Below are positions 11,332 to 46,882 of a stretch of DNA of 64,000 nt, one piece after another (positions within the stretch are counted from its first letter, which is position 1; the number at the start of each line of letters is the position of its first letter). The notes below the pieces were generated by a model. It was given only the letters and a program-made list of their open reading frames with translations. It searched no databases and was not told the origin of the DNA. The position numbers and the translations under genes are program-made. Source of the stretch: Cytophagales bacterium (GTDB lineage: Bacteria > Bacteroidota > Bacteroidia > Cytophagales > UBA9547); NCBI GenBank assembly GCA_013297755.1, contig JAAFIH010000009.1, forward strand, positions 62,001 through 126,000, written 5' to 3'.

Positions 11332-12849
11332 CTAAATTTCTGGCCTCATTTGAGGAAAAAATAGTACATCTTGTATCGAATTTTGATTTGTCATAAGCAT
11401 ACAAAGCCTATCTATACCTATACCAATACCTGCGGTGGGTGGCATACCATATTCTAAAGCTCGTAAGAAATCATGGTCTATAAACATAGCTTCGTCATCG
11501 CCACGTTCCATCAATTTTACTTGCTCTTCAAATCGCTCCTTTTGGTCTATGGGGTCGTTGAGTTCTGAGTAGGCGTTGGCTACTTCTTTGCCATTTATCA
11601 TCAATTCAAAACGCTCTACTAAACCAGGTTTTGAGCGATGTTTTTTGGTCAGTGGGCTCATTTCTACTGGATAATCAGTAATAAATGTAGGTTGAATAAA
11701 TGATTTCTCACATAAAGTGCCAAATATTTCATCAATTATCTTACCTTTTCCGATTTTATCGGTAATGTGTATGTTTTGATTTTTGCAAAAGTTACGCAGT
11801 TGTAATTCGTCCATTTCTGAAATATCGACAGAGGTTTTTTCTTTGATTGCATCCAAAATACTGATTCTTTTGAATGGAGCTTCAAAATTTATCTTTTTAT
11901 CGCCCACTTGTACTTCTGTAGTTCCGTGTAAGTTTATGGCAATTTTTTCTAAAAGTTTTTCAGTAAAATCCATCATCCAAAAATAATCTTTATAGGCTAC
12001 ATAAAATTCCAAAACCGTAAATTCAGGATTGTGTGTACGATCCATGCCTTCGTTGCGGAAGTTGCGAGAAAACTCATAAACGAAATCAAAACCACCCACG
12101 ATGAGTCGTTTTAGGTACAATTCGTTGGCAATTCTTAAATAAAAAGGCACATCCAAAGTGTTGTGATGGGTTACAAAAGGGCGTGCTGCTGCTCCACCAG
12201 GTATATTTTGAAGCACAGGTGTATCTACCTCCAAGGCGCCATGGTCGTTGAGATAATCTCTGATGGTTCGCACCAAAGCCGAGCGTTTAATAAAAACATC
12301 TTTTACTCCTGGCGTAACTACCAAGTCTGCATAGCGTTGTCTGTACCTAAATTCAGCATCTGTTACAGCATCAAATGTAGTTTTATTACCTTGCTCATCA
12401 ACCAATTCTTTTACTATGGGCAATGGTTTGAGCGATTTGGCGAGCAGTTGTAGTTCTGTAACGTGTATAGAAATTTCGCCAGTTTGAGTCGTAAATACAT
12501 ACCCTTTTACACCAACATAATCGCCAATATCCATCAATTTTTTGAATACTACGTTGTATAAATCCTTGTTTTCGCCTGGGCAAATGTCATCCCTGCTGAT
12601 ATACATTTGTATTTTGGCACGCTCGTCTTGCAGCACAGCAAACGATGCTTTACCCATGATTCTGCGTGTCATCAATCGACCAGCAATGGCAATATTTTTG
12701 TATTCAATTTTTTGAGATTCGTAATTTTTGAGAATATCGTATGCCGAAGCATTTACCTCAAAAGTAGCAGCTGGATATGGGTCGATTCCCATTTTAGATA
12801 ACTCTTCCCTTGATTGTCTGCGTAATAATTCTGGTTCAGATAATTGCAT
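11332..12849 (-). CDS. lysS: Lysyl-tRNA synthetase, class II
   Basis: Class II lysyl-tRNA synthetase (505 residues, normal length), charging tRNA-Lys in the cytosol. The N-terminal OB-fold anticodon-binding domain (residues ~55-150, AGRLMTRRIMGKASFAVLQD) precedes the catalytic domain. Motif 2 is FRNEGMDRTHNPEFT and motif 3 is GIGIGIDRLCML near the C-terminus. The serine-rich KHRSKPGLVERFELMINGKE block and EVANAYSELNDP are characteristic of LysS. Single-gene unit, ATG at 12849. Confidence 0.97.
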   Translation of the reverse strand: MQLSEPELLRRQSREELSKMGIDPYPAATFEVNASAYDILKNYESQKIEYKNIAIAGRLMTRRIMGKASFAVLQDERAKIQMYISRDDICPGENKDLYNVVFKKLMDIGDYVGVKGYVFTTQTGEISIHVTELQLLAKSLKPLPIVKELVDEQGNKTTFDAVTDAEFRYRQRYADLVVTPGVKDVFIKRSALVRTIRDYLNDHGALEVDTPVLQNIPGGAAARPFVTHHNTLDVPFYLRIANELYLKRLIVGGFDFVYEFSRNFRNEGMDRTHNPEFTVLEFYVAYKDYFWMMDFTEKLLEKIAINLHGTTEVQVGDKKINFEAPFKRISILDAIKEKTSVDISEMDELQLRNFCKNQNIHITDKIGKGKIIDEIFGTLCEKSFIQPTFITDYPVEMSPLTKKHRSKPGLVERFELMINGKEVANAYSELNDPIDQKERFEEQVKLMERGDDEAMFIDHDFLRALEYGMPPTAGIGIGIDRLCMLMTNQNSIQDVLFFPQMRPEI

Positions 12850-35003: not shown

Positions 35004-36844
35004 GTTGTAATTGGCTTTAATCGAAAATGAATGATTGATTTTAAAGGATTTCTCATTCGCTTCGCAGACAAAATTGTATCTTTGCCATTGATAAACAACA
35101 ATAAGGTTTAAGGGCTTTACTCCTTGATGGTTGTGATTTGCTTTCAAAATTGTACCTTTGCCATTGATAAACAACTTAGCTCGTGTAATGGAATGGCCTT
35201 GCTTTGTTGTGATTTGCTTTCAAAATTGTATCTTTGCCATTGATAAACAACAGAAAGATACTAATATTTGACCCCAACAACGTTGTGATTTGCTTTCAAA
35301 ATTGTATCTTTGCCATTGATAAACAACGTAGCTTTTTGTTTTGACAAAATCGAAGATGTTGTGATTTGCTTTCAAAATTGTATCTTTGCCATTGATAAAC
35401 AACAGGATAAATTTGTATGTAACATACATCATCGTTGTGATTTGCTTTCAAAATTGTATCTTTGCCATTGATAAACAACTTTCAAGTTTATTTCAAAATT
35501 CAGTAAGTGGTTGTGATTTGCTTTCAAAATTGTATCTTTGCCATTGATAAACAACGTGCATCATTTTTAAATAATGATTGATGTTGTTGTGATTTGCTTT
35601 CAAAATTGTATCTTTGCCATTGATAAACAACGCAGGTAGCGTTGATAAATTAGCTAACAGTGTTGTGATTTGCTTTCAAAATTGTATCTTTGCCATTGAT
35701 AAACAACAAACCATAGTTTCGGATACTTACATAGGTAGTTGTGATTTGCTTTCAAAATTGTATCTTTGCCATTGATAAACAACGGACGACCCTCAAAACC
35801 AAAAACTACCTTTGTTGTGATTTGCTTTCAAAATTGTATCTTTGCCATTGATAAACAACGTACGTACTCGGCAAGAGGCTTTGACAATTGTTGTGATTTG
35901 CTTTCAAAATTGTATCTTTGCCATTGATAAACAACTTTGATTTACAAATTGCTTCGAAATCCTTTGTTGTGATTTGCTTTCAAAATTGTATCTTTGCCAT
36001 TGATAAACAACAAATGTAGTGGTAAGTAATATTTCTTCTTCGTTGTGATTTGCTTTCAAAATTGTATCTTTGCCATTGATAAACAACCTAAAATTAGAAA
36101 TCAAAAATGAATCTAAGTTGTGATTTGCTTTCAAAATTGTATCTTTGCCATTGATAAACAACAGTAATCCTTGTGATGAGTATTCTATCGGTGTTGTGAT
36201 TTGCTTTCAAAATTGTATCTTTGCCATTGATAAACAACTTTTTTTGAAATAATTGCTTCATAATTTATGTTGTGATTTGCTTTCAAAATTGTATCTTTGC
36301 CATTGATAAACAACTGTAAGAGTTTCGTGTTCATTGCTCTCTTGTTGTGATTTGCTTTCAAAATTGTATCTTTGCCATTGATAAACAACCTATATAAATT
36401 AAATATTGATTTCTATTTGTTGTGATTTGCTTTCAAAATTGTATCTTTGCCATTGATAAACAACCAATAGTAGTTGAATTATTAATCATTGCGTGTTGTG
36501 ATTTGCTTTCAAAATTGTATCTTTGCCATTGATAAACAACACCATACATTATAAGTAGATACTACACCATGTTGTGATTTGCTTTCAAAATTGTATCTTT
36601 GCCATTGATAAACAACAAATTAATAAAAATAACGATGGAATATAAAGTTGTGATTTGCTTTCAAAATTGTATCTTTGCCATTGATAAACAACTTTACAGG
36701 ATAAAAATGTGCCAATCTCACTGTTGTGATTTGCTTTCAAAATTGTATCTTTGCCATTGATAAACAACCGAAATTTTAGCTTCTTGTATCACCGATGAGT
36801 TGTGATTTGCTTTCAAAATTGTATCTTTGCCATTGATAAACAAC
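35004..36844 (+). CRISPR. Type II-C CRISPR array, 24 repeats
   Basis: 46-nt repeats (GTTGTGATTTGCTTTCAAAA, then TTGTATCTTTGCC, ending ATTGATAAACAAC) with spacers of 29-30 nt. 23 regular repeats start at 35130 and recur every 75-76 bp to 36799. A further repeat at 35004-35099 carries a 50-nt insertion after base 15 and is followed by a normal 30-nt spacer. The first regular repeat has one change (TATC to TACC). All others appear identical. The ends GTTGT/ACAAC are complementary. The crRNA direction is inferred as plus: the 5' half of the repeat pairs with the tracrRNA candidates, and each repeat holds a promoter-like TTG-N19-TATCTTTG. Confidence 0.97.
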
Positions 36845-36888: not shown

Positions 36889-36947
36889 TTACAAATTCAA
36901 AAATCAAGGTTTAAAGATAAAAAAAGCTCCTCTTTAGGGGGCTTTTT
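36889..36947 (+). terminator. Array-end block with hairpin terminator, copy 1
   Basis: A 43-bp block (starting TTACAAATTCAAAAATCAAG) leads into AAAAAAGCTCC...GGGGGCTTTTTT, an intrinsic terminator 75 bp beyond the last repeat. The block is repeated at 37047. Confidence 0.75.
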
Positions 36948-37046: not shown

Positions 37047-37109
37047 TTACAAATTCAAAAATCAAGGTTTAAAGATAAAAAAAGCTCCTTTAATCGAAGA
37101 GGCTTTTTT
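37047..37109. terminator. Array-end block with hairpin terminator, copy 2 (cut by IS)
   Basis: Same 43-bp block as 36889, then AAAAAAGCTCC...GAGGCTTTTTT. The IS starts at 37110 and has copied GCTTTTTT. Without the IS the T-run would lie about 4 bp from the stop of the HIRAN gene, so this was a bidirectional terminator between array and cas operon. Confidence 0.75.
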
Positions 37110-38557: not shown

Positions 38558-39445
38558 CTAGATACTATGGATTATTTCTTTAGCTTCTATTATTTCTTTA
38601 AAAACCATTTCATAAAACTCTCTGCCTTGGTCGTCTACTATTTTTCTAAATTCTTTTATTTCGTTTACCAATTCGGGCATTCTATCCATATTAATAAAAA
38701 TATATTTTTTTCCCTCTATGGCGTTTTCTAGATATAATTTGGCATCTTCTACCGCAAATAGCAACTTGTCTTCGTACAAATGTTGCGGTATTTTCTCGGT
38801 ATTCATAATTATTTTTGCTTCACTCAAGGCTTGCTCAAAGGCCTCAGAATTAGCAAAACTATTATGAATCAACGTATACACTTCGTCTGTTTGGCTGTGC
38901 TCTACCATCAAATCATATATACTTTCGGCTCTCGATGGCTTAGATTTTATTTTAGAATATCGGTCATTTTTGTTTTCTAATGTGTAATATATTGGATTTT
39001 CAATTTCAGATAAATATGTAGGTATATTACTATCTTTTGAACTTTTATTTACTATTTTTTTGAGAATAAAAATGGCACAACAGCAATTTTCCCAGCTTTC
39101 GGATTGTAGTTCTACATGAGTGATTTCGGCCATTATTTCCATCATATTTGCATCCATAAGCCTTGCCAAAACTTCGTTTTTTTCGGCTGGTACAAATCCT
39201 ATTTTGAAATTTTGGTAATAAATAGCTATAGCAAAGTTGTCGTACTGATTGTAGGGTTCTCGTTTAAGCTCCAACAGGTCGGTAGATTTCATGAGGTGTA
39301 ATATTTTTTTGCCTTCGTTAAATTGAAATCCTCGAACAAAAAATTGTAATAAATATATTTTTTGATACTGAATTTGTAAGTTTTTTGGAATGGCCGCCAT
39401 TCCTACTAAACTTACTAGATTGGTCAGAAATAATTGCCTGTTCAT
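38558..39445 (-). CDS. HIRAN-domain protein, last gene of the cas operon
   Basis: 295 residues. A HIRAN domain spans residues ~30-115: FVRGFQFNEGKKIL, LLELKREPYNQYDNFAIAIY and KIGFVPAEKNEVLARLMD are the core strands. HIRAN domains bind DNA ends, notably 3' single-stranded ends in HLTF/Rad5. No helicase or nuclease motif follows; the C-terminal half is helical and acidic. The N-terminal 20 residues are weakly hydrophobic. It starts 33 bp after cas2 and ended, before the IS insertion, right at the operon terminator, so it looks like a true operon member. A role in handling DNA ends during spacer capture is inferred only. Confidence 0.8.
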   Translation of the reverse strand: MNRQLFLTNLVSLVGMAAIPKNLQIQYQKIYLLQFFVRGFQFNEGKKILHLMKSTDLLELKREPYNQYDNFAIAIYYQNFKIGFVPAEKNEVLARLMDANMMEIMAEITHVELQSESWENCCCAIFILKKIVNKSSKDSNIPTYLSEIENPIYYTLENKNDRYSKIKSKPSRAESIYDLMVEHSQTDEVYTLIHNSFANSEAFEQALSEAKIIMNTEKIPQHLYEDKLLFAVEDAKLYLENAIEGKKYIFINMDRMPELVNEIKEFRKIVDDQGREFYEMVFKEIIEAKEIIHSI

Positions 39446-39478: not shown

Positions 39479-39814
39479 CTAAAACAATTCCAACTGTTGT
39501 GGCATATTTTCACGGTGTTTTTTTTCTCTGCAATAAAATATTTTCATGTCGCCAAACTGCTTGTCGGTAATTTTTGTAATGACTACGTGCCCTTTTTCGG
39601 GTAGTAAATCTTGTACACGTTTGATGTGCACATCGGCATTTTCGCTACTAAAGCAATGTCGCATATACATGCTGTACTGAAACATCGTAAATCCATCTCT
39701 CATTATTTCTGTACGAAATTTTGTGGCTGCTTTTCGCTCCTTGGTTTCTACCACTGGCAAATCAAAATATACCATTACCCACATGATTCTATATTGGTTT
39801 AGTCGGTCCAACAT
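39479..39814 (-). CDS. cas2: CRISPR-associated endonuclease Cas2
   Basis: Cas2 of 111 residues, the structural partner of Cas1 in spacer integration. The beta-alpha-beta ferredoxin fold is seen in MWVMVYFDLPVVETKERKAATKFR (Asp of the first strand at YFDLP) and in GHVVITKITDKQFGDMKIFY. This subtype II length and the LDRLNQYR leader are typical of type II-C. It lies 56 bp after cas1 and 33 bp before the HIRAN gene, all on the minus strand. ATG is at 39814; a second ATG a few codons in is possible. Confidence 0.95.
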   Translation of the reverse strand: MLDRLNQYRIMWVMVYFDLPVVETKERKAATKFRTEIMRDGFTMFQYSMYMRHCFSSENADVHIKRVQDLLPEKGHVVITKITDKQFGDMKIFYCREKKHRENMPQQLELF

Positions 39815-39870: not shown

Positions 39871-40797
39871 TTATTGTATAAAATTTGGGTAAATTATTTT
39901 TCTATAATCGCCTTCAAAACATTTATAGACAGAAAATGTAGTTTTTTGCACTCCCACCATCAATGGACTTTTGGTGCCTTCTATTTCTATATCCAATGTA
40001 GGTATTTGCAAAAGTTGGGCTTTTATTTCTTTAGAAATTTCAACAGTTGTGGGATGTTTTGATATAATCTGCAAAACCAGTGCATCAACTATGGGTCTGT
40101 AGGGTTCCATAATATCATCGGCCAAGCAATAAGCGTTGTATTGATTGCGATGATGAATACCTAGAGTGGGCAAAAGCCCAGAACCTACCAAGCTGCGTGC
40201 CACTGTGGCCCGCAAAATGGCATAGCCATAGTTTAGAAAATTATTGGGATAAAAACCCTCTCGCTCACGCACAAAGTCTTGTATATTAGCATGATTAATA
40301 AAAATATTTTTCCAATAATAAGCTGCTGCTCGAGCCTCGTGGTTGTCGCTGTCTCCTGATTTTACATCGTCTTCCCAGCGTTTCATGTTGCCTGTTTCTA
40401 TGCCTTGCGATGCCAGCAAAAGGGCTTGGTTGTGTATTTTGGCTTTGATGGTTTGTTGCCACAGTTGTTTTTTGAGCGGTTCAGTGGCTTCTATTTGGGC
40501 TTTAAATCTGGCAGATTGCAACGTATGTCCATCCAAATTGAGCATCAAGCCTGTGGGGTGGTGGGTGGCGTTGCAAGTAATCAAAGCCACATTATTTGCT
40601 AATAATTTATCTATCAAACCATGTGAGATAGTAATTTGTTGATTATCCAAAATCACTATACCAATATCTTCGATAGGGATAGTATTCAACTCCCCAATCT
40701 CGTCCAGACCATTCGCATTTGGCAAATTAAATACCAGTTGCTCGTTTTTGGTTCGCAAATATACAGGGTTTGAAAATGAAAGTGTGCGTTTTAACAT
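39871..40797 (-). CDS. cas1: CRISPR-associated integrase Cas1
   Basis: Cas1 of 308 residues, subtype II form. With Cas2 it integrates new spacers at the leader end of the array. The N-terminal beta domain begins LKRTLSFSNPVYLRTKNEQL. The catalytic helical domain has NHEARAAAYYWKNIF with the metal-binding Glu, GIHHRNQYNAYCLADDIMEPYRP with the His and Asp, and the late KTTFSVYKCFEGDYRK region. Only 6 bp separate it from the ATPase gene upstream, so the two are co-transcribed. Confidence 0.97.
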   Translation of the reverse strand: MLKRTLSFSNPVYLRTKNEQLVFNLPNANGLDEIGELNTIPIEDIGIVILDNQQITISHGLIDKLLANNVALITCNATHHPTGLMLNLDGHTLQSARFKAQIEATEPLKKQLWQQTIKAKIHNQALLLASQGIETGNMKRWEDDVKSGDSDNHEARAAAYYWKNIFINHANIQDFVREREGFYPNNFLNYGYAILRATVARSLVGSGLLPTLGIHHRNQYNAYCLADDIMEPYRPIVDALVLQIISKHPTTVEISKEIKAQLLQIPTLDIEIEGTKSPLMVGVQKTTFSVYKCFEGDYRKIIYPNFIQ

Positions 40798-40803
40798 TTT
40801 TTC

Positions 40804-41940
40804 TTAGAATTTAATTTTAAGCCATCGCATCAAAAATTTATCATATACTTGATAAAATGGTTCGTCAATTCCTGTTTGATAATAAATCATCTCTTTTTCT
40901 AGCAGTGCATCTAGGCTTCTTTTTACAGCAGCTGGTGTGCCTAAATTATTTTTTGAAATAAAATTTTTTGACTGAGGCTGAAATACTTTTTCTTCTTTCG
41001 CAATCGCACACAGCAAATTCCATTGTGCCTGTGTGAGCAAATTTTTATACTGAAAATACACATTTTCGTTTAGTTTTAAAATTTCATGTGCTGTTTCGTG
41101 GGCAATCGCAAGCGTATTGTGGGTGTGGTTTTTGAAAAATAATTGCGAGCAAAAATATTGCGTATAAAACGTATGTAAGCCTGTCCAATCACAAATAAAA
41201 TCTAAACAGTCTGGCGTTATTTCTTTTTTGCAAGATGCAAATTTTTGGAGTATAAATTGCTTATAAATTTCAGCATCGATAAAGTCTAAATTTATGTTTG
41301 TACAACTCGCAAAAAAAGGTCTTTTAGCAGAATTGAATATTTCGTTCATCATTTTCTGGTTGCTTCCACAAAATATAAACGATGTGTTTTTAAGCGTTTG
41401 AATCGAAGTGCGTAGCAATGATTCAACATTTTTTTCTGGATATGACAATACTTGCTGAAACTCATCTATGGCAAATACTATTTTGATATTTTGGCTGTCT
41501 AAAAAACTTAAAATTTGCCCAATCGTGTTTTCTTTTTGGGCTTTTGTTTCCATCGTTAAACTCAGCGATGGCGTGCCAGTGAGTTCATCAAAAGATATAA
41601 CAGGTCTAAATAGTTGAAAAATATCTGTTATTTTTCTTCCAAAATGCTTCTTTTTAGGGAAATAATTGTATACTTCTGTAGCAATTTGGTTCGTAAAATC
41701 AGCTAAATTCTGGGTTGAAAGTATATCAATATAGATACAAACGATATCAGAATTGTCTTTATATTGATTAAAAACATGATGAATTAAGCCTGTTTTCCCA
41801 ATTCTTCTAACAGCAAAAAGAGCAATATGAGTGCCATTTTGAATGAAATTTGCCATTTGTTGGGTTTCTTCAATGCGGTCGCAAAAATAATCAGGACCGT
41901 TATATCCTGCGGATAAGAATGGATTCGATAGCTTTTTCAT
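40804..41940 (-). CDS. AAA ATPase (archaeal-ATPase type) inside the cas operon
   Basis: P-loop ATPase of 378 residues from the ATG at 41940. An earlier ATG at 42024 adds 28 residues that only translate a palindromic promoter region. Walker A is FAVRRIGKTGLI (residue ~50), Walker B VFAIDEFQQ, a sensor follows at SFIFCGSNQKMM, and the C-terminal winged helix ends DEPFYQVYDKFLMRWLK. This is the Arch_ATPase (PF01637)-like family common in Bacteroidota, with no agreed role. It sits between cas9 and cas1 with 6 bp to cas1, and has its own promoter-like sequence. It is not a known core component of type II-C. Confidence 0.85.
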   Translation of the reverse strand: MKKLSNPFLSAGYNGPDYFCDRIEETQQMANFIQNGTHIALFAVRRIGKTGLIHHVFNQYKDNSDIVCIYIDILSTQNLADFTNQIATEVYNYFPKKKHFGRKITDIFQLFRPVISFDELTGTPSLSLTMETKAQKENTIGQILSFLDSQNIKIVFAIDEFQQVLSYPEKNVESLLRTSIQTLKNTSFIFCGSNQKMMNEIFNSAKRPFFASCTNINLDFIDAEIYKQFILQKFASCKKEITPDCLDFICDWTGLHTFYTQYFCSQLFFKNHTHNTLAIAHETAHEILKLNENVYFQYKNLLTQAQWNLLCAIAKEEKVFQPQSKNFISKNNLGTPAAVKRSLDALLEKEMIYYQTGIDEPFYQVYDKFLMRWLKIKF

Positions 41941-41944
41941 ACCC

Positions 41945-41974
41945 CAAATATATACAACATTTTGTATGATACAA
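41945..41974 (-). promoter_or_regulatory. Promoter of the ATPase gene
   Basis: On the minus strand: TTG (41972-41974), 19 bp, TATATTTG (41945-41952), matching the Bacteroidota consensus TTG-N19-TAnnTTTG. The ATG at 41940 is only 4 bp beyond the -7 box, so the transcript would be almost leaderless. Confidence 0.6.
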
Positions 41975-41998
41975 AATGTATGATACAAAATGTTGTAT
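41952..41998. promoter_or_regulatory. Operator-like overlapping palindromes
   Basis: ACATTTTGTAT, G, ATACAAAATGT at 41957-41979 is a perfect 11+1+11 palindrome. A second half site ATACAAAATGTTGTAT at 41983-41998 pairs with 41952-41967. The motif ATACAAAATGT is thus repeated and lies across the promoter spacer, as a repressor site would. Confidence 0.6.
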
Positions 41999-42085
41999 GA
42001 AATTTCATTTTCACTTGCAACCATCTATAAAAATAGCAAATCGTAATGCTGTTTTCGTGGATGATTAGGCTTTGGAGATATTCAA

Positions 42086-45000
42086 TTATACTTTCCATTT
42101 TATTTCTCCATCTGGCATCATTTCAAAGTGTTTGTGTTCTATGGCAAAATTGAAGTTTCCTTTAGTTAATAAATACCTATGTTTGGGTTTATTAAAATCA
42201 ATTTTACTATATCCAAATGAGTAAATTTTATCTTCCAATTCTTTTCCTTTCTTTGAAATTTCATCGGCTGAACGTGCTTCTAAATGATATTCAAATGTCA
42301 TTTGTATACCTTTAAACTTTAAAATTCTATACAGCCTTTTATTTAAGGTAGTTTTATCTAACCCCTTTAATTCTTCTAATTTCTGTTCAAAGAAAATAAC
42401 TTTAGTTCCAGGCTTAAGTAAAGCATAAGGCTGGATAGTCTCACCTGCTTTATTCAATTTTGAGATAGAAATTTCTCCTTTCTCATTGAGTAGTTTATGA
42501 GAAACCAGATAAGCTGCATCCAATAAATTTATAATTTCGAATTCTCTTTCTTGTTTTCCTAAATAATCGTATTGATAAAAAGCACAAATAATATTTGCCC
42601 CTTTAGCAGTGTCTGCATAGTAGTATTTTTTGTATTCTTTTTCAGATTCAAAAACGTGTTTTCGAATCTGTAGAGGATTTTTCAAGTCTGTTTTTACCCT
42701 TACTTTATTTATTCTTATGACTTTTTCTTCGTTCATCCAAATGGGATTCTTAAAGGTTTCCTTGTTTAATCCGTATTTTTCTATATGGTCAAGTACTTTT
42801 TTGCGAACGACTGGGTCTATTATGTCTTCCAATGCTTTTTTATCTTTAAATCCTAAATCGCTGAACTCTAATTTTTTTCTAATAACGTAAACACGCTTTG
42901 CATTTTCCTCATATTCAAATTCGCCAGAATCATTTCGTAAAGGGTTTCCTTCTACATCTAATTTTGGCAAAATGATAGCCCCAAGCATTGATTCATTATG
43001 TAATTGCCCTCTTATGGTATCACCAGTAGCTACTTTTGGTATTTTTTTACCTTCATTATCTAATATAAATTGCCCTGATTTATCTGTGAGGTAGACTATC
43101 TTACCTCGTTTCCGCACATACTTCACAGTTTGAATTACGGCTTTGTCTCTAGTAGAATTTTGAATTAGTGTTTCATCATCCAATTTTAATAATTGACTTT
43201 GATGGAAATTTTTCCATGGTTTTTTATGGAATTTAATTTTTTGCTCTTGTGCCTCAAAATATTGTTTCAGAATGCTTTCTCTTTCAGCTGCCTTAGGAAT
43301 GAGGGTAAGCACAGCAGCATCTATGGTATGGTGGGTGTGTTTACTTCGGTTTTTTTCTTCATTTATCTCAAATATTTTCCTAAATATAGATGTTACCTCC
43401 CCCTTTTGAACATCTACACGCTTAAAAACTGACTTCATGTAATGAAACGCATACTTGGTAATAATTTGGGTATCAACCAAATTTGCATTTCTGAAACCCC
43501 CTTTAACTTCTGTCATTTGAAATCGGTAGAGTTTGTTTTTCCAATAATCCAATTCAAACCTAATTATGTGTTTTTCTTGAATGGCTAAATCCTTAGAGTC
43601 CTTTGACTGGGCAGATTTAGACTTTTTCTTAGCCAGTTCGTACCTAAATTTTAGTTTTTCTACTTTATCAATCCAAGGCGTAAGTCTGGCTTCTATTTCC
43701 GTATAGTTTTCCAGTTGGGTGGGTATTCTATTATTTTTCCTGGCATTAAAGGCAGTTTCGCAAAGTGTCTTATTTTCCATTGAATCGTCAAATGATTGAC
43801 TGGCTGGAATAGTGTGCTCAATTTGAAATTTCATCCCATCAAACACATCTGCGATACTTATCATTTCTCCTGTGTAGATGCTCATTTTGCCCTGTTCATT
43901 CCAAAGCCGTACTTTTTGAATGAGATCTTTATCGTTTTTATTATATCCATGTCTTTCTATTTCAACCTTGTATTCTTCGTTTTTCTTTTCATTAGCATTT
44001 TGCCATTTTTCGATAGCCACCCTCATATTTGCATCATTAAGGTCTCTAGCAAGTTCCACTACCACTCTATCATCTTCATCTATTTTTTCAGTTTCTATCA
44101 AATAATTCATCAATCTTTTGAGCTCATGCAATGTTCGCATTGCCATTGGATTCTTGAACGAACCTGTTTTGGGGCTTTGCAAATATTTTTTATGGTCTTC
44201 TTTATCGGGAAGAGAAGGTTGATAAATGTCGTTGTCTGATGGATGATATAGTTTTTCTATATCTTTATCCGTAATGTGGTCAAAATTATTTCTTAAAAAC
44301 TGAATGACCGCTTCATCCAATCGTGGAATGGGTAAAAATGTTTTAGCTTTTGTTCCCCGTGGATATTGCAAGAACTTCAGGTACAAATCCGAAACCGTTT
44401 TAGTTATGAAATCTTGTTTCTCTTTTGGAAATTCATTCCAAGATTTTTGTCCAAAATAGTCTAAAATTGAATCATTTATTTCTTTTTTGTCATTCGCATC
44501 CAATTGGTACGAATTGTCCCAACCAAATTGCTCTTCATTTGGCAATGCAAGAAATTTGCCAATCAAATTATTGACAATCTTTAAGGTGTCATTTATACTG
44601 TTTTGATATTTAAAGATATATGTAATCCCTTCTTGTATTACGGACTTATGCGTATTGTAAAATTCTACTCCTACAACTTTTGGCATATTTGCATATAGTA
44701 CTGCTTCTGTATATATAAAACCTTGAAGTAGGTACTCATTGATTTTTGTAATTGCATTTAAGCTCAGTTGTGCATATCCATCAGGTGTCTTTTTCCAAAG
44801 AATTACAAATTTATCAGCCATTTTGGGTTCTAACCCCAGTTTTTCAATTGCGAACAATTCAACTCTATCTTTATCATCAAAATTAAAAAGAACATGCCAA
44901 ATATCTTCAAGAGTGTATTTTCCTATTTTTTGCGTTTGCCAATTTTCTCCAAATATTTCATATAATCCTGCACAAATTGGACTTGCAGCAATGTTTTGAT

Positions 45001-46054
45001 GAGTTTTATAATTGAAATCGTATCCTCCATCCAGCAATTTGATAATCTCTTCAAAATCAAAAGAAGTATCTTTCTTTTTAAGAAATTTTTCTTTCCAAAT
45101 TTTCTCTTTCCATTCAGTTGGTATGGTTCGAAAATTATTTTTTTCTTCGCTTTTATATTTGTATTTGATGTTGTTAATCACGCTCCAAGCCCTAAAAACT
45201 TCAAATTGAGGGTGGCTAATAGGACAACGTGTTTTGTTTTTTTCTAAGGTACATTTACCTACCAAGCCTTTTTGTGAACGCAGTGGTCTTTGCCAAATAA
45301 TTGCTTTATGGATGTTTTTATAAAAATCAGAATCTTTTGATATGCCTTGAACCTCACAAATTAGATTTAATTCATGCTCTACTTGTTTGCGAAGTATATA
45401 CCTGTTTCTAATTCTATCAAATCTAGTATCTAATGTAGCCAATGCAGCTCCCAAACTTCCTTCAGTTTCTATTAAATTAGTAATTGCATCTGATCCAGGT
45501 CTGCCTTCTATTCCTTTAGAAATGGTTTCACTTTCATTTCCTTGCTCTTTTCTACCACTCAAAAAACCTCTTCTTTGAACCAAATGGTATAAAGCCCTAC
45601 CTATTTCTAAATTTGAGAGTTTTTCTCTAATAGCTTTAGCTCTCAATTGATACGGATTTTCATATTCACTTACCGAATCGTTGTTGAAATCTAGTTTCAA
45701 CCAATTGTGAAATAGAGTAGAAGTAGGATAAACACGTTTTCTAATTGCTTTATCATAATGATACCAAGCCTCAAAATCTTTTTTTGAAAGTGGACAAAAT
45801 TGACTTTCAGTTTCAATAAGTGTTTTTATGAGTTGCCATTTTTGGTATTTCTTTACTTGATAGTTTCTTCGTATGCCCCGATTTTTAGTTCGTTTAAAAA
45901 CCATTGGCTCTTCATTTCCAGAACTATCTTGTCCAACTCCCTTTTTGAAAATCAAAACACCATTATCAATAATCTGATTTTCTTCCAACTGAGGGTTTCT
46001 AATTGCCCAACCAATAGAATTTGTTCCTAAATCTAGTCCAATAATTTTGTTCAT
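42086..46054 (-). CDS. cas9: CRISPR-associated endonuclease Cas9, type II-C
   Basis: Cas9 of 1322 residues, the RNA-guided double-strand DNA nuclease. RuvC-I is at the N-terminus (IIGLDLGTNSIGWAI, Asp ~8), followed by the Arg-rich bridge helix (RTKNRGIRRNYQVKKYQKWQ). RuvC-II is at ~665 (VVVELARDLN), HNH at ~745 (IEHTIPASQSFDDSMENKTL) and RuvC-III at ~910 (THHTIDAAVLTL). All catalytic residues appear intact. No csn2 or cas4 is present, so the locus is type II-C, in the long Bacteroidota branch. It is divergent from tracrRNA candidate A. ATG at 46054. The guide pairing and PAM cannot be read from this sequence. Confidence 0.97.
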   Translation of the reverse strand: MNKIIGLDLGTNSIGWAIRNPQLEENQIIDNGVLIFKKGVGQDSSGNEEPMVFKRTKNRGIRRNYQVKKYQKWQLIKTLIETESQFCPLSKKDFEAWYHYDKAIRKRVYPTSTLFHNWLKLDFNNDSVSEYENPYQLRAKAIREKLSNLEIGRALYHLVQRRGFLSGRKEQGNESETISKGIEGRPGSDAITNLIETEGSLGAALATLDTRFDRIRNRYILRKQVEHELNLICEVQGISKDSDFYKNIHKAIIWQRPLRSQKGLVGKCTLEKNKTRCPISHPQFEVFRAWSVINNIKYKYKSEEKNNFRTIPTEWKEKIWKEKFLKKKDTSFDFEEIIKLLDGGYDFNYKTHQNIAASPICAGLYEIFGENWQTQKIGKYTLEDIWHVLFNFDDKDRVELFAIEKLGLEPKMADKFVILWKKTPDGYAQLSLNAITKINEYLLQGFIYTEAVLYANMPKVVGVEFYNTHKSVIQEGITYIFKYQNSINDTLKIVNNLIGKFLALPNEEQFGWDNSYQLDANDKKEINDSILDYFGQKSWNEFPKEKQDFITKTVSDLYLKFLQYPRGTKAKTFLPIPRLDEAVIQFLRNNFDHITDKDIEKLYHPSDNDIYQPSLPDKEDHKKYLQSPKTGSFKNPMAMRTLHELKRLMNYLIETEKIDEDDRVVVELARDLNDANMRVAIEKWQNANEKKNEEYKVEIERHGYNKNDKDLIQKVRLWNEQGKMSIYTGEMISIADVFDGMKFQIEHTIPASQSFDDSMENKTLCETAFNARKNNRIPTQLENYTEIEARLTPWIDKVEKLKFRYELAKKKSKSAQSKDSKDLAIQEKHIIRFELDYWKNKLYRFQMTEVKGGFRNANLVDTQIITKYAFHYMKSVFKRVDVQKGEVTSIFRKIFEINEEKNRSKHTHHTIDAAVLTLIPKAAERESILKQYFEAQEQKIKFHKKPWKNFHQSQLLKLDDETLIQNSTRDKAVIQTVKYVRKRGKIVYLTDKSGQFILDNEGKKIPKVATGDTIRGQLHNESMLGAIILPKLDVEGNPLRNDSGEFEYEENAKRVYVIRKKLEFSDLGFKDKKALEDIIDPVVRKKVLDHIEKYGLNKETFKNPIWMNEEKVIRINKVRVKTDLKNPLQIRKHVFESEKEYKKYYYADTAKGANIICAFYQYDYLGKQEREFEIINLLDAAYLVSHKLLNEKGEISISKLNKAGETIQPYALLKPGTKVIFFEQKLEELKGLDKTTLNKRLYRILKFKGIQMTFEYHLEARSADEISKKGKELEDKIYSFGYSKIDFNKPKHRYLLTKGNFNFAIEHKHFEMMPDGEIKWKV

Positions 46055-46077
46055 ATCATTTTATTTATTTATGTTTG
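46047..46077 (+). promoter_or_regulatory. Promoter of tracrRNA candidate A
   Basis: TTG (46047-46049), 20 bp, TATGTTTG (46070-46077), a full match to the Bacteroidota consensus. The -33 box lies within the first codons of cas9 on the other strand. Transcription would start near 46083, at the anti-repeat. Confidence 0.7.
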
Positions 46078-46082
46078 TATCA

Positions 46083-46167
46083 GTTTTGAAAGACTTATCA
46101 CAATAAGGCTATAAGCCGAAGATAATCTCATCCCTGCATCGTTTACGCTCTGTGGGGCTTTTTTTTT
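46083..46167 (+). ncRNA. tracrRNA candidate A
   Basis: The anti-repeat 46081-46104 pairs with repeat bases 1-8 (ATCACAAT with GTTGTGAT) and 12-23 (CAGTTTTGAAAG with CTTTCAAAATTG), leaving a 3x4 internal loop as in known crRNA:tracrRNA duplexes. A GGCT-ATA-AGCC hairpin follows (nexus-like), then a G/C-rich stem and a T-run at 46160-46167. A consensus promoter lies just upstream. It is placed beside cas9 in divergent orientation, the common place for tracrRNA. About 85 nt. Confidence 0.8.
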
Positions 46168-46259
46168 CAATATTAATTACTAATTTCTATTTTTCAAATA
46201 TCTTTTAAAGTATTTTAAATCATCTACATTTATAGCTTTTTAAAAATATTTTACCTAAA

Positions 46260-46535
46260 ATGCCCTTCGACCTCGACTACTCGCAGCTAAATTTATCCTC
46301 AGACCCTGATAAAATAACCCCTATTGAGATTAAAAGTGTTATTGATAATCCTAAATACAGGTTTTTTTGGTTAGATGGTTATTCTTTAAAAGATAACTAT
46401 AGTATTATTTGTGGTTATAGCAATAAAAAACGAATTTTATTGATTGCTTCTTGTATCTTAGATAATAAATGCGTAATTCTTCAAGTAAATGTGGCAGACG
46501 ATGAACAAATTGAAATGTATTATTGCAAATCTTAA
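46260..46535 (+). CDS. Small protein, BrnT-like toxin candidate
   Basis: 91 residues, not firmly recognised. The pattern PIEIKSVIDNPKYRFFWLDG, IICGYSNKKRILLIASCI, VNVADDEQIEMYY has the same order of short strands and spacing as BrnT/DUF4258-like ribonuclease toxins (binding strand, R-x-L-L-I strand, final A..EI..Y), but the key catalytic residues cannot be confirmed. It is followed 42 bp later by a 52-codon gene whose product has an antitoxin-like charged helix. Both lie between two tracrRNA candidates upstream of cas9. Confidence 0.5.
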   Translation: MPFDLDYSQLNLSSDPDKITPIEIKSVIDNPKYRFFWLDGYSLKDNYSIICGYSNKKRILLIASCILDNKCVILQVNVADDEQIEMYYCKS

Positions 46536-46553
46536 TTAATATTTTTATATTTG
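46523..46553 (+). promoter_or_regulatory. Promoter before the 52-residue gene
   Basis: TTG (46523-46525), 20 bp, TATATTTG (46546-46553), 24 bp before the ATG at 46578. It could also feed transcription into tracrRNA candidate B. Confidence 0.6.
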
Positions 46554-46577
46554 TAGTGATATAAATATAGGATTCCT

Positions 46578-46736
46578 ATGCAAATAGAAACAACTCCATT
46601 CAACCCATTTACTGGCAAAAACCCTGACGAAGTATGGCGTGAATTGCATAAAATAGCCGTTCCAGTTGATAGAGTAACAGCCATGAAACAAATCGAAGAA
46701 ATTATCAAAGAACGAAAAGCACAAGCGAAAAAATAA
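46578..46736 (+). CDS. 52-residue protein, possible antitoxin partner
   Basis: Starts METQ-like as MQIETTPFNPFTGKNP and ends in a charged helix (VTAMKQIEEIIKERKAQAKK). It has its own consensus promoter, and the frame has no rare features. Not recognised. Its size, charge and position after a BrnT-like gene suggest an antitoxin or small DNA-binding partner. It ends about 60 bp before tracrRNA candidate B, so both could share a transcript. Confidence 0.5.
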   Translation: MQIETTPFNPFTGKNPDEVWRELHKIAVPVDRVTAMKQIEEIIKERKAQAKK

Positions 46737-46789
46737 TAACAGCCAAAATCTGAGTGCAAATCAAATGAAACTCCCCTCAAAATCAATCT

Positions 46790-46882
46790 TTGTCGAATAA
46801 AGCAAATCACAATAAGGATTATTCCTTAGTGCAAACATCTAAGTCGCCTCATCTTACCTTACTGAGCTTTTTTATTTTTTTT
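46790..46882 (+). ncRNA. tracrRNA candidate B
   Basis: AAAGCAAATCACAAT (46799-46813) is complementary to repeat bases 1-15 without a bulge (one G-U). AAGGATTATTCCTT forms the next hairpin. GTGCAAACATCTAAG and a weak CTCA/TGAG stem follow, ending in TTTTTTATTTTTTTT. The AAUAAGGAUUAUUCC...AAACAU order is that of known Bacteroidota II-C tracrRNAs. AATCTTTG at 46785-46792 is a one-mismatch -7 box. Same direction as candidate A, about 700 bp further from cas9. Confidence 0.7.

Follow-up and report, generated by a model that had tools for sequence, protein, structure and literature searches.

A given Cas9 is usually assumed to have one fixed type of tracrRNA. In Streptococcus pyogenes, the tracr-L that Workman reportedly described in 2021 is said to be a longer form of the same tracrRNA gene and to carry a guide. 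The CRISPR-Cas system analyzed here lies in a 64,000-nt stretch of DNA from a Cytophagales bacterium (hereafter the window), and by its repeat length we take it to correspond to clade X of Gasiunas 2020, type II-C systems of Bacteroidota with 46-47-nt repeats. The window locus resembles the tracr-L case in that its cas9 is accompanied by more than one form of tracrRNA. Unlike tracr-L, the two RNAs, here called A and B, come from separate genes, and the search for a guide match at the locus was negative.

The accessible portions of the work on Bacteroidota type II-C systems with 46-47-nt repeats describe clade-typed tracrRNAs with exceptions and contain no mention of a locus with two types (Gasiunas 2020; PMC7606464). 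Such systems share with the window locus the cas9-cas1-cas2 order, 46-nt repeats, a tracrRNA divergently upstream of cas9 and a tracrRNA type tied to the Cas9 clade, whereas the window locus has two tracrRNA families. In Flavobacterium psychrophilum, Fp1Cas9 was replaced in place by Fp2Cas9 (PMC10309648). There, as at the locus presented here, cas9 was swapped between the tracrRNA and cas1 and the rest of the locus was kept. One tracrRNA is described in F. psychrophilum, whereas here the incoming cas9 appears to bring its own tracrRNA while the old type remains. A literature search recovered no paper on two tracrRNA families at one cas9, with most subscription journals outside its reach. Non-cognate tracrRNAs at single-Cas9 loci would record Cas9 exchanges in DNA, making swap histories readable from sequence.

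Locus organization

The window carries the following features, with identities given to the sister species G005 (locus L019), which belongs to the same genus.

35130..36844, plus strand: CRISPR array with the 46-nt repeat GTTGTGATTTGCTTTCAAAATTGTATCTTTGCCATTGATAAACAAC
39479..39814, minus strand: cas2 (TIGR01573; 86% identity)
39871..40797, minus strand: cas1 (TIGR03639, 299.7 bits; 78% identity)
42086..46054, minus strand: cas9, 1322 aa, type II-C, A-type clade (TIGR01865, 391 bits; Cas9 tree)
46046..46077, plus strand: promoter of A, TTTG at 46046-46049 and TATGTTTG at 46070-46077, overlapping the cas9 start
46083..46167, plus strand: tracrRNA A, with antirepeat at 46083-46104, nexus hairpin GGCTATAAGCC at 46107-46117 and terminator hairpin at about 46132-46158 plus T-run
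46260..46535, plus strand: 91-aa ORF between A and B (60% identity to L019 8006-8281)
46578..46736, plus strand: 52-aa ORF between A and B (76% identity over 46 aa to L019 8318-8473)
46783..46791, plus strand: weak promoter-like box upstream of B, AATCTTTG (6.0 of 8 points, not above shuffles)
46794..46873, plus strand: tracrRNA B, with antirepeat AAAGCAAATCACAAT at 46799-46813, nexus GGATTATTCC at 46816-46825, a degenerate tail and a weak terminator to about 46882

The minus strand has the order cas9, AAA ATPase gene, cas1, cas2 and HIRAN-domain gene, followed by an ISAon1-type transposase gene and the array. The array is thus near the cas genes, with the transposase gene between it and cas2, and the ORFs neighboring the cas genes encode the AAA ATPase and the HIRAN protein. 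Upstream of cas9, the plus strand reads A, 91-aa ORF, 52-aa ORF, B and murG. Cas9 contains HNH and RuvC domains (TIGR01865 as above; HNH_4, 1.5e-16). The locus is of type II-C, with matches to cas1_NMENI and cas2 and with csn2 and cas4 absent. A search of the genome for a second Cas9 found none, and a search for family matches to the 91-aa ORF was equally negative.

Several further elements accompany these genes. The AAA ATPase gene (40804-42024, minus strand, between cas9 and cas1) has a weak PADLOC match to PDC-S27, and relatives near cas9 in L086, L090 and L151 suggest a possible accessory gene. The HIRAN-domain gene between cas2 and the array (38558-39445, minus strand; 21-866 in L019) is also found in the B-type locus L207, with a weak match in L147. 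Every repeat of the window array holds TATCTTTG with TTTG before it, which constitutes a Bacteroidota promoter, and crRNAs may therefore start from every repeat. Identical 43-nt direct repeats lie between the array and the ISAon1 element (36889-36931 and 37047-37089), each followed by a terminator-like hairpin, AAAAAAGCTCCT...GGCTTTTTT.

Two tracrRNA families

Hardly any other stretch of the window comes close to A and B in pairing with the repeat. Over its initial 24 nt, duplex energies are -19.7 kcal/mol for A and -19.5 for B, against a background of 2902 random window stretches with a mean of -7.1, a 1% quantile of -14.0 and a minimum of -20.5. Two covariance models were built with the window left out, R2 from 54 A-type tracrRNAs of other species and R1 from 27 B-type tracrRNAs found at other cas9 loci. 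R2 matched A at 46083-46162 (71.5 bits, E 2.4e-15) and R1 matched B (57.5 bits, E 1.7e-10), the E-values being rough for such short-calibrated models. Neither RNA had a match in Rfam at gathering thresholds. A and B are separate genes of different families, and neither is a copy of the other.

A is the standard, cognate tracrRNA of the window Cas9 clade. It combines an antirepeat to its own repeat with the AAGGCTATAAGCC nexus, a terminator and a divergent position next to cas9. Pairing with the repeat spans 8 bp, an internal loop and then about 11 bp, with a cofold energy of -32.6 kcal/mol. The promoter is a perfect Bacteroidota match, TTTG - 20 nt - TATGTTTG (consensus TTTG/TAnnTTTG), and near-perfect promoters occur in 73% of the A set vs 3% of shuffles. 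We took 80 relatives of the window Cas9 from named genomes, and for 79 of them at least some upstream sequence is available. In 77 of these 79, cas9 is preceded at a distance of 35-125 bp by an A-type tracrRNA on the opposite strand.

B-type tracrRNAs normally occur alone, at loci of a separate Cas9 clade. Its hallmarks are the AAGGATTATTCC nexus and the GTTGTGAAAACAT tail. A phylum-wide sample of 395 Bacteroidota genomes contained the B core in 29, nearly always adjoining a cas9 about 25-35% identical to the A-type cas9s. In a tree of 110 Cas9s, with A-type loci picked as best relatives of A-type Cas9s, B-only loci picked by the B core and other Cas9 clades unsampled, the B-only loci form one monophyletic clade (support 99). 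Window B has an antirepeat to the array repeat, pairing over 15 continuous bp, and the AAGGATTATTCC nexus. The tail reads TTAGTGCAAACAT instead, and the terminator hairpin is nearly gone, at -1.3 kcal/mol vs -10.6 in the sister species, which retains both the family tail and a stable terminator.

The preliminary description of this stretch had proposed two distinct tracrRNA candidates upstream of a single cas9, A with a full consensus promoter and terminator and B with a continuous 15-bp pairing and a weaker promoter. Energies and covariance models, the latter a check that it had suggested, agree with this account; the near loss of the B terminator hairpin had been missed. It had also named a lack of conservation of one of the RNAs in relatives as part of what would speak against its proposal. 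The opposite was observed, as B is conserved in relatives, the sister species among them.

Recurrence of loci with both families

Using model R1 and direct inspection, we found A together with B in 16 of 87 A-type loci (the window, L019, L086, L091, L099, L103, L106, L109, L117, L121, L123, L132, L138, L146, L152 and L154), of which L146 is weak and two, L109 and L121, are truncated where their contigs end. Since many loci stem from metagenome bins whose contigs stop close to this region, all counts of B are minimum values. Most B copies at dual loci lie 90-850 bp beyond A, with L086 and L123 as tandem arrangements, and in L117 B is located at the cas9 3' end. Nine further A-type loci carry graded remnants of B in the same place, consisting of a B body that lacks the antirepeat (L111, L116, L125), of no more than tail and terminator or a decayed nexus (L114, L119, L137, L162), or of the antirepeat alone (L110, L126). 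The dual state shows no clustering on the Cas9 tree, with 16 changes vs 15.3 in shuffles. Several dual-locus B copies score like sole B tracrRNAs (67-88 vs 66-90 bits). Dual B promoters are weaker, with scores of at least 7 in 3 of 15 vs 17 of 28 at B-only loci (Fisher p 0.023). A single Cas9 is present in 15 of the 16 dual genomes, that is in the window genome and 14 of the 15 others.

The exception is the L099 genome (G1106), where one metagenome bin holds several Cas9 genes (C10, C23, C142, C148). Unusual arrangements occur at other loci as well. In L132 (10250-10640), the B antirepeat is the last repeat of the array and B continues from it. In L154 (2200-2530), the antirepeat consists of a complete 46-nt repeat, before which lie a spacer-like stretch and the end of a repeat. 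These array-derived antirepeats suggest that B-type tracrRNAs arise or renew at array ends. In L228 (12901 and 19305; G865), one B-type cas9 is flanked by two B-type tracrRNAs. L188/L222 (G783) carries an A-like tracrRNA with a changed nexus, followed directly by a B body with truncated antirepeat, and its long-branched Cas9 lies at the base of the B clade.

Cas9 cassette exchange

The sister species shares the order A - 91-aa ORF - 51-aa ORF - B with the window. The array repeat is nearly identical, and the antirepeat and nexus core of B matches at 32 of 32 nt. Cas9 is only 34% identical and falls in another A-type subclade. Conserved flanks and B around such divergent Cas9s show that the [A-cas9] cassette was exchanged within the genus and that B stayed. 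Such swaps are frequent, as the Cas9 type requires a single change on the Cas9 tree (FastTree) vs 12 on the Cas1 tree (quick IQ-TREE run). The Cas1 of L103 is sister to two B-type loci (support 99), and that of L099 pairs with one B-type locus (94). Overall, the Cas1 of dual loci is no nearer to B-only Cas1 than that of loci without B (p 0.37 with remnants, 0.48 without). The Cas9s of L019 and L020 (G003) are sisters, and the Cas1s of the window, L019 and L020 form a clade (support 100) with G003 as outgroup. By parsimony, the common ancestor of the window and G005 therefore already had an A-type Cas9.

Origin and possible roles of B

We propose, with a probability of roughly 60%, that A guides the resident Cas9 and that B is a leftover tracrRNA of a former Cas9. 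A is predicted to be transcribed divergently from cas9, to pair with the crRNA repeats and to be loaded by the resident Cas9. Its universal position beside this Cas9 clade supports the earlier suggestion that one of the two RNAs guides interference. An [A tracrRNA - cas9] cassette would have replaced an earlier cas9, leaving cas1, cas2, the array and B behind. We infer that this earlier Cas9 belonged to the B clade. Since the two types have similar repeats, B would still be able to pair with crRNAs. With a weak promoter, a collapsed terminator and an altered tail, the decay of window B has likely begun, and B is probably not the main guide partner. The leftover origin is supported by the position of A beside cas9 in 77 of 79 relatives, the association of B alone with a distinct Cas9 clade, the graded remains at nine loci, the weaker dual B promoters and the single Cas9 of the window genome. 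The grouping of L103 and L099 Cas1 with B-type loci, the conserved flanks in G005 and the type changes on the Cas1 tree point in the same direction. The absence of an overall affinity of dual-locus Cas1 to B-only Cas1 (p 0.48) counts against a leftover origin.

Selection might instead maintain B as a functional second tracrRNA, a possible though clearly less probable explanation. B would compete with A for crRNAs or serve the same Cas9 with a different outcome, such as crRNA maturation by RNase III, dampening or alternative targeting. The antirepeat and nexus show no decay in the window and G005, whose ancestor by parsimony already carried an A-type Cas9. B is also conserved between L152 and L154 in otherwise unalignable surroundings, with Cas9s separated by about 0.5 substitutions per site. 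The fit of B antirepeats is better to their own arrays than to those of other loci (p 0.008 with the two array-derived cases dropped), and the same holds for A antirepeats (p 0.0018). Conservation in L152 and L154 and the fit to own arrays point to use of B after the exchange, and the dual B copies that score like sole B tracrRNAs fit the same picture. Patchy presence, with as many tree changes as under shuffled labels, argues against selection, as do the graded remnants, the weak promoters and the nearly lost terminator in the window. Bacteroidota II-C loci in general might keep non-cognate B under selection, with B competing for crRNAs or changing Cas9 output and a cas1-cas2-array-B backbone accepting either Cas9 clade, yet we consider this doubtful. 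If still active, B would provide a naturally occurring Cas9 system with a second partner RNA. Because B pairs as well as A, tool builders should be aware that an antirepeat match alone can select the wrong tracrRNA.

It is very unlikely that B serves another Cas9 in trans, encoded on a plasmid, in another strain or at a second locus. The earlier proposal of a second Cas9 allele was right insofar as the B type is used by a separate Cas9 clade, and the L099 genome has further Cas9 genes. The window genome and 14 of the 15 other dual genomes, however, encode a single Cas9. Even more improbable is a long tracrRNA role for A or B, as a natural single guide directing Cas9 to the cas promoter. This regulatory role, also raised in the preliminary description, draws on analogy with S. 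pyogenes tracr-L and found no support. No match of at least 9 nt connects the stretch upstream of B with the cas9 promoter zone, the stretches upstream of B and A share no words of at least 9 nt in reverse complement, and no 5' extension whose seed would match the cas promoter is present at the window locus. A chance antirepeat, conceivable in an AT-rich genome with many partial matches, is effectively ruled out by the R1 match (E 1.7e-10) and the conserved synteny with G005.

B-like RNAs in phages and an IMG/VR contig

Searching phage records with the B core revealed an unannotated B-like RNA in five Riemerella phages, namely PJR4 (L234 2492-2564), CRP19 (L235 2495-2571), GDF21 (L236), PJL1 (L237) and PQ820062. 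In this RNA, a strand upstream of the antirepeat pairs with it in cis (TTGCGAAATG...CATTTCGCAA in CRP19, TTATGAAATG...CATTTCATAA in PJR4), and the compensatory differences between these pairings indicate the layout of a single-guide RNA. A stretch of about 20 nt upstream is conserved. Two IMG/VR matches to B proved to be Cas9 loci (L229, L231). The word tracrRNA is absent from the Racr paper (PMC10651486). On the 61-kb IMG/VR contig IMGVR_UViG_3300013936_000003 (L233), which has no cas9, a B tracrRNA that is intact and has a perfect promoter (12769-12838, minus strand; 78 bits) adjoins an integrase gene. The phage and L233 RNAs may be RNA-based inhibitors (anti-CRISPR) of type II-C Cas9.
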